DNA of 13,864 nucleotides from an uncultured Lachnospiraceae bacterium. Lineage in GTDB: Bacteria; Bacillota; Clostridia; Lachnospirales; Lachnospiraceae. The position numbers were made by a program, and so were the translations under genes. This document shows positions 1,918 through 2,047 of the stretch, piece after piece (positions within the stretch are counted from its first letter, which is position 1; each line of letters opens with the position of its first letter). The notes under the pieces were generated by a model, which saw only the letters and a program-made list of their open reading frames with translations, had not been told where the DNA came from and searched no databases. The DNA lies in contig CAMNFX010000016.1 in the NCBI GenBank assembly GCA_946537585.1, positions 1 through 13,864 on the forward strand. Direction: 5' to 3'.

Positions 1918-1950
1918 CAAAAAGAAAGGGTGACTGCGATGCAATCACCC
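1918..1950 (-). terminator. Intrinsic terminator inside the uraA leader (attenuator)
   Basis: Minus strand: 10-bp stem GGGTGATTGC/GCAGTCACCC (one G-U pair) with loop ATC at 1928-1950, followed by TTTCTTTTTG. It is upstream of uraA and ends only 15 nt before its start codon, so it is placed to stop transcription before the gene. The TGA of the leader peptide is bases 4-6 of the 5' arm. Confidence 0.85.
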
Positions 1951-2016
1951 TTGATAACAATACCAATGGAAAACAAATGACTCAGAAAGCTTATCGGTCT
2001 TCATATTGCTAACCAT
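1945..2016 (-). CDS. uraA leader peptide (23 aa, predicted attenuation ORF)
   Basis: A short ORF on the minus strand beginning MVSNMKTDKL and ending FVFHWYCYQG, with AGGAGG at 2024-2029 exactly 7 nt from the ATG. The second half is coded by very U-rich codons (TTT GTT TTC CAT TGG TAT TGT TAT). The stop TGA lies in the 5' arm of the attenuator hairpin, so a ribosome reaching it would cover the arm and block the hairpin. This matches the logic of the E. coli pyrBI leader, where low UTP slows RNA polymerase in a U-rich tract and lets the ribosome catch up. An alternative is amino-acid sensing (the end holds F, H, W, Y, C), but no single amino acid dominates. No peptide function is implied; the act of translation is the likely role. 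I know of no named family. Confidence 0.7.
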   Translation of the reverse strand: MVSNMKTDKLSESFVFHWYCYQG

Positions 2017-2047
2017 GGGACTTCCTCCTGCATTTATTTTCCACAAC

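Follow-up and report, generated by a model that had tools for sequence, protein, structure and literature searches.

A candidate pyrBI-type, UTP-sensing attenuator ahead of the uracil permease gene in Clostridia lacking PyrR

The uracil permease gene in the 13,864-nt stretch of Lachnospiraceae DNA analysed here (the window) is likely to be controlled by a transcription attenuator of the pyrBI type, in which a ribosome on a short leader frame mediates the sensing of UTP, in Clostridia that lack PyrR. Through this leader, a shortage of UTP probably turns on the import of uracil. We infer the response to UTP, the read-through, the transcript start and the translation of the leader from sequence alone.

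The leader and its proposed action

The whole leader element and the permease gene lie on the minus strand of the window, the element sitting between uppP (2913-2086), which encodes undecaprenyl-diphosphate phosphatase, and the gene of an NCS2 permease (1902-571). The parts reported in the first-pass annotation are all present on this strand: a consensus Shine-Dalgarno sequence (SD), AGGAGG (2029-2024), whose GGAGG does not vary between the window and three relatives; an ORF of 23 codons, running from the ATG at 2016 to the TGA at 1945 and encoding MVSNMKTDKLSESFVFHWYCYQG; a U-rich tract (1980-1954), the proposed region of UTP-dependent pausing, with 16 U in 27 nt by direct count and 16 U within the last 30 nt ahead of the stem; and a stop codon (1947-1945) that forms positions 6-8 of the 5' arm of the terminator, at +8 of the stem. 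The terminator had also been correctly called together with its U-tract (TCTTTTTG, 1925-1918), but its stem, given as 10 bp, proves in the terminator scan to have 12 bp, with one G-U pair and the loop ATC (1952-1926, dG -17.9). The distance from the leader ATG to the start of the stem is 64 nt, and the SD of uraA, GAGGAGGG, lies at 1913-1906.

A putative promoter (2076-2048), with TTGCAT (2076-2071) and TACGCT (2053-2048) separated by 17 nt, is suggested by a block of conserved sequence that the window shares with three relatives; a consensus scan of the window's leader region returned no promoter above threshold. At the end of uppP lies a hairpin that resembles a terminator (2089-2065, minus strand); it overlaps the putative -35 box, placing TTGCAT partly in the loop and partly in the 3' arm of that hairpin.

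The likely substrate of the permease is uracil. In profile searches its sequence (gene 1902-571, minus strand) scores 302.6 bits against TIGR00801, above the cut-off, 294.7 bits against the PRK10720 uracil permease model, below the curated cut-off of 477, and 198.7 bits against the xanthine permease model. Its best solved relatives are the uracil permeases 8omz, 3qe7 and 5xls; in the alignment to 8omz, which covers residues 19-422, the EHVG and TTYGEN motifs are retained, and we take their glutamates to bind uracil. The window's genome encodes a second NCS2 permease (L002, at G000:C15:5661-6911), 28% identical to uraA, with a strong terminator upstream and no leader ORF in the scan.

Under the proposed mechanism, transcription would begin just 5' of the leader SD, at a start predicted from the layout, and RNA polymerase would then traverse the later, U-rich half of the ORF. 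When UTP is ample, this passage would be fast, the ribosome would not yet have arrived, and the hairpin would form and stop transcription before uraA. When UTP is scarce, the polymerase would presumably pause and linger in the U tract as the ribosome initiates; a ribosome at the stop codon in the 5' arm of the terminator would then leave no hairpin, uraA would be transcribed, and the import of uracil would restore UTP.

This geometry can be set against rules established in E. coli (PMC4824070). There, placing a stop codon 5 bp ahead of a terminator takes termination down from about 90% to less than 10%, and termination is maximal when the distance from stop to terminator is over 27 nt. A terminator that falls within a frame's first 100 bp is not repressed unless a pause of the polymerase lets the ribosome couple to it, for which the authors cite pyrBI. 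The stop within the stem and the stem 64 nt past the ATG fit these rules, so the terminator of the window should win unless the polymerase pauses. The U tract would supply this pause and make it dependent on UTP. Bacillota are classed as having runaway transcription (PMC13323073), and the purine content of the window's genes (52.9% overall, 45.3% for uraA) is in its overall figure in keeping with that class. If the class applies, it should be hard for a ribosome to catch the polymerase unless UTP slows the latter.

A competing antiterminator was found in none of the 13 leaders folded, where the best alternative pairing was no better than in shuffles (lowest fraction 0.20). As no upstream partner of the terminator's 5' arm stands out from these shuffles, this argues against switching of the trp, riboswitch or PyrR type, and direct blocking by the ribosome remains. 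An amino-acid attenuator of the trp or his type, which would sense Phe or some other amino acid through control codons, is thus one that we hold to be extremely improbable. Late residues are more often Phe than anything else (27 of the 145 late codons of 13 leaders), but Phe codons are expected from U-richness, and third-position U is also frequent in the late codons that do not encode Phe (0.44, against 0.35 in early leader codons and 0.19 in uraA). Further points against control codons are that none is fixed, that the 13 peptides have no residue run in common, and that such sensing would have no connection to uracil import.

Conservation in the genus

The genus set consists of 25 genomes, including the window's own, which is 59% complete. 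Close orthologs of uraA, defined by E under 1e-180, were found in eight of them, and all eight are preceded by an SD, a leader ORF of 18-38 codons, a U-rich tract and a terminator. The 30 nt preceding the stem hold 13-18 U in every case, and the stop falls at -7, -4, -4, +2, +3, +6, +6 and +8 relative to the stem, so that the conservation of the ORF and of its stop-in-stem geometry that was to be sought in aligned relatives holds for 8/8 genus orthologs. The peptides share no common motif among the eight compared, a KLQESF-like stretch being common only to the four nearest leaders, and the leader sequence itself is conserved only between the window and its three nearest relatives.

The covarying stem predicted by the first-pass annotation was likewise found. 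In an alignment of seven sequences, four of which are close kin and from which G014 was omitted as misaligned, 97.4% of cells are paired, six of the 12 terminator pairs have changed on both sides, and four of five covariation measures beat shuffles; further pair types in this alignment show no excess (8 against a shuffle mean of 10).

Occurrence of uraA in the genus is patchy (8/25), the sequence upstream of the leader differs among the genomes, and in the UraA tree the genus copies fall into two groups with PyrR-associated relatives between them. Taken together, these patterns suggest that uraA has been transferred along with its leader.

The 5' end of the leader may also have a role. In the predicted minimum free energy fold, the arm TGGAAAATAAATG (2043-2031), which adjoins the putative start of the transcript, is able to pair with positions 1979-1967 of the U tract and would enclose the leader SD; other genus leaders have similar pairings made of different sequences. 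With shuffling done segment by segment, p is 0.010 for the window (G000), 0.025 for G023 and 0.06-0.67 for the other six genus leaders (0.67 for G022), giving a combined p of 0.002 for five genus lineages. Five distant leaders gave no signal (combined p 0.59). Shuffling of whole leaders yielded a stronger signal but ignores the purine-rich SD. It is a possibility that the pairing is a gate which closes once the U tract leaves the polymerase: the transcribed tract would pair with the extreme 5' end and hide the ribosome site of the leader, such that a ribosome could load only during the time that the polymerase is held within the tract. If this were true, the switch would work without standing coupling of transcription and translation. 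The wider proposal is that a ribosome-mediated sensor of UTP has arisen repeatedly on the uracil permease of Clostridia without PyrR, bacteria in which transcription is believed to outrun translation, and that this genus has added a kinetic gate at the U tract; we regard it as doubtful, and put it forward tentatively.

uraA terminators, PyrR and pyrB across Clostridia

The wider survey drew uraA loci from four sources: a named genome collection (the best 80 of the matches listed), relatives (30 loci), a sample of the class (40 of 391 genomes with a match at 1e-120, giving 30 loci) and the family of genome G148 (42 of 120 genomes with 43 places, of which the best 30 were scanned). Within the final 200 nt, a terminator is present at 58 of the resulting 167 distinct loci and missing from 109, in some cases because of contig ends. 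A leader ORF, counted as any frame that has an SD and stops no earlier than -13 and no later than the hairpin's end, is present at 36 of the 58 uraA terminators; of 782 control terminators taken from these loci, 80 have one (Fisher 3e-19). The rows are related by descent rather than independent, and the 36 include two repeats (L175 duplicates L059, and L224 duplicates L066) and four doubtful cases (L021, L034, L059/L175 with a weak SD, and L227 within pyrR). The remaining 22 uraA terminators have no leader ORF. In smaller, earlier sets the corresponding counts were 12/38 against 3/394 with a strict SD and 22/45 against 45/491 with a looser one, the count of 36/58 against 80/782 being the fullest. 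Six additional stretches upstream of uraA (L211-L216, outside the 167) contained no leader.

Could these arrangements be ordinary terminators with spurious ORFs in U-rich intergenic regions? Some ORF is seen by the loose test at those 80 control terminators, and 74 of 810 controls have at least 13 U in 30 nt. Set against this are the eight of eight genus orthologs, the 36 of 58 uraA terminators, and a strict test requiring both an SD match of at least 5 and at least 13 U in 30 nt, which 16 of 58 uraA terminators pass compared with 3 of 810 controls; its thresholds were picked after the genus leaders had been seen, its rows are kin by descent, and the controls had grown from 782 to 810 as later loci were added. 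The position of the stop points the same way, lying at +1 to +3 in 15 of 36 leaders and in 6 of 83 control ORFs. We therefore give a chance origin of the arrangement next to no credence.

The leaders are also distinguished by their U content. The last 30 nt hold on average 12.1 U in the 36 leaders against 9.3 in the 22 other uraA terminators (p 0.003), with 8.1 in the controls and 7.4 in those controls that have an ORF. Towards the stem, the U fraction per 10 nt of the 36 leaders rises from 0.27 to 0.47, and that of C stays steady at 0.19-0.25. Individual leaders differ widely, 20 having at least 12 U in 30 nt, four having 10-11 and 12 having at most 9; six of them (L025, L046, L064, L066, L239 and L250) have 4-9. 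The overlap of ORF and terminator is thus broader than the U tract, and some uraA leaders may respond to something other than UTP.

This variation bears on an explanation in which the attenuator reads the translation of the leader in general, be it initiation rate, growth state or translation stress, and the U tract is a by-product or a generic pause. The 12 leaders of low U content, the Lachnospiraceae L025, L046 and L064 among them, speak for it, as do the genus 5' ends that can pair with the U tract and so enclose the SD. We nevertheless judge it unlikely: the enrichment towards the stem is in U and not in C, all eight genus leaders keep their 13-18 U despite diverged peptides, and the controlled gene resembles a uracil importer. 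Sensing of UTP stays our preferred reading.

Two further groups of Lachnospiraceae loci were seen in the survey. L011, L025 and L046 share a uraA leader with an ORF of 13-20 codons that ends at a CACGTCAGGG..CCCTGACGTG terminator, and have 11, 7 and 7 U in 30 nt, respectively; PyrR is absent from the genomes of L011 and L025, the two of the three that were checked. L023, L034 and L039 have in common a uraA terminator whose loop is CTTGA and whose arms are rich in ATAT, and none of these three has a convincing leader ORF. In G054, a frame of 76 codons crosses the terminator and stops 5 nt before the uraA ATG. The motif TGACAATCAC..GTGRTTGTC has four matches in the 120 genomes of G148's family, all of them at uraA leaders. 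A quick tree of 150 rows, in which L225 and L092, both outside the 36, were labelled by eye, has seven changes of leader label, at least three of which are forced by well-supported branches, so repeated gain or loss of the leader is likely.

The PyrR gene has no match over the curated cut-off in any of the 25 genus genomes, the window's own incomplete genome included, nor in 12 other genomes of the family, and is found in 6 of 24 genomes of the order. For a closer comparison, 16 genomes were chosen after their leaders had been seen. PyrR is absent from all five with a leader ORF at the terminator (L051, L056 from Pseudoflavonifractor phocaeensis, L066, L075 and L092), present in all five whose leaders show loops that we take to be PyrR-like by their motif (L009, L012, L040, L044 and L038; an Rfam search of L009 and L012 left these loops unreported), and absent from the six others, three of which (L008, L011 and L025) also have a leader ORF. 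In G148's family, sampled as 30 genomes by UraA score plus G148, which was picked for its leader, PyrR occurs in 8 of 31 genomes and directly ahead of uraA in seven of the eight. The scanner reports a leader in 14 of 23 PyrR-less genomes of this sample and in one of the eight PyrR-bearing ones (p 0.023); that sole match is doubtful and sits inside pyrR, and p becomes 0.003 on its exclusion. The scanner reports no leader in nine of the PyrR-less genomes, among them that of L225, which has a leader by eye. On these comparisons, the uraA leader tends to occur in genomes without PyrR, and it is not the only substitute for PyrR.

A switch of the PyrR or riboswitch type with an unrecognised binding site would be suggested by the adjacency of uraA and pyrR in other Clostridia, and by the fold of the window's leader and terminator, which is more stable than its shuffles (z -5.06). 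However, as well as the absence of PyrR from the 25 genus genomes and of an antiterminator from the 13 leaders, no Rfam family exceeds threshold in the window, PyrR site included, in agreement with the earlier failure to find such a site in the leader; in the loci of 20 relatives nothing does so save a tRNA; and the leader sequence is unconserved across the genus. This reading seems to us very unlikely. The one Rfam candidate considered in the window, L20_leader, scored 18.2 bits (E 0.22) where 58.7 are required, and was rejected as a chance match.

The presence of a similar element at pyrB was examined as well. Upstream of pyrB in 20 genus genomes, in stretches that may miss the first promoter of the operon, no terminator is preceded by 40 nt whose U fraction exceeds 0.40; in G011 (L158), a hairpin between pyrE and pyrB is accompanied by a GTG-initiated ORF that ends at -11, with 9 U in 30. 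In leader-bearing genomes outside the genus, no U-rich leader was found at pyrB, and at L221, L260 and L265 the ORFs that lie near a hairpin are poor in U. The lack of a U-rich leader at pyrB counts against the proposal and makes the element look tied to uraA. In six leader-bearing genomes (G022, G599, G535, G514, G579 and G544), five of which are 93-100% complete, pyrB is undetectable; the last five named make up 5 of 14 leader-bearing genomes in G148's family. These organisms possibly depend on imported uracil, and the switch, if the proposal is true, may govern their main supply of pyrimidines.

If the proposal is true, sensing of a nucleotide through polymerase speed and ribosome position is not special to enteric bacteria, but is a recurrent stand-in for PyrR in Clostridia. 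The leader would then also be a natural in vivo reporter of whether ribosomes can catch RNA polymerase in Bacillota.

Comparison with known systems

The closest known counterpart is pyrBI of E. coli with its leader peptide PyrL, which likewise has an SD-led leader ORF, a U-rich stretch, an intrinsic terminator and a pyrimidine gene downstream. The two classic sources on attenuation of this type are Roland 1988 and Turnbough and Switzer 2008. By our count, pyrL has 12 U in 30 nt, and it ends 3 nt before pyrB; the ORF of the window is shorter and ends inside the terminator, whereas that of G054 ends as pyrL does. Passage of the frame through the terminator is therefore seen in G054 and not in the window, and presumably is unnecessary for the mechanism, as the case of E. 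coli pyrE suggests. At pyrE, a translated frame also ends near a terminator ahead of a pyrimidine gene. In the K-12 record this frame is an rph gene in truncated form, with 34 nt between its stop and the stem of the pyrE attenuator; there a whole gene serves as leader, unlike the dedicated short ORF of the window. In pyrBI, coupling of the ribosome over pyrL is described in PMC5021804, with the position of the ribosome deciding termination. No sequence relation is seen between the pyrBI leader and that of the window, which in addition belongs to a Gram-positive bacterium and precedes a permease gene instead of that of aspartate transcarbamoylase.

Other attenuators are known in Gram-positive bacteria. 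In the PyrR attenuators of Bacillota, a terminator before pyrimidine genes, including that of uracil permease, is opened when pyrimidines are scarce. The window resembles them in having a terminator ahead of a uracil permease gene, and differs in that its genus has no PyrR over cut-off and its sequence no PyrR site over threshold. At the pyrG attenuator of Bacillus subtilis, slippage occurs at the transcript start under pyrimidine starvation and the ribosome is not needed, unlike in our proposal, which relies on the ribosome. This CTP-sensitive reiterative transcription has in common with the switch proposed here the sensing of a nucleotide in a Gram-positive bacterium; pyrG attenuation is mentioned in PMC4448216. 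His leader peptides before hisS and hisZ in bacilli, proposed on the basis of premature terminators in PMC2965389, are a case of leader-peptide attenuation in Firmicutes, but they contain a stretch of His codons and sense an amino acid rather than a nucleotide as proposed here; the text of that paper makes no mention of uracil, UTP or pyrimidine. Among the motifs surveyed in PMC3766115, the PyrR site is the one that controls pyrimidine metabolism.

Among the open-licence papers listed, judged by titles and the openings of abstracts, none describes a pyrBI-type attenuator in a member of Bacillota or upstream of uraA. Two observations go further than the first-pass annotation: the layout is found again in Clostridia outside the genus, where it tends to be missing if PyrR is present, and the leaders folded have no competing antiterminator. 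What would be new in the window is a pyrBI-type layout in a Gram-positive bacterium, set on a permease gene, in a phylum whose transcription is predicted to be of the runaway kind.
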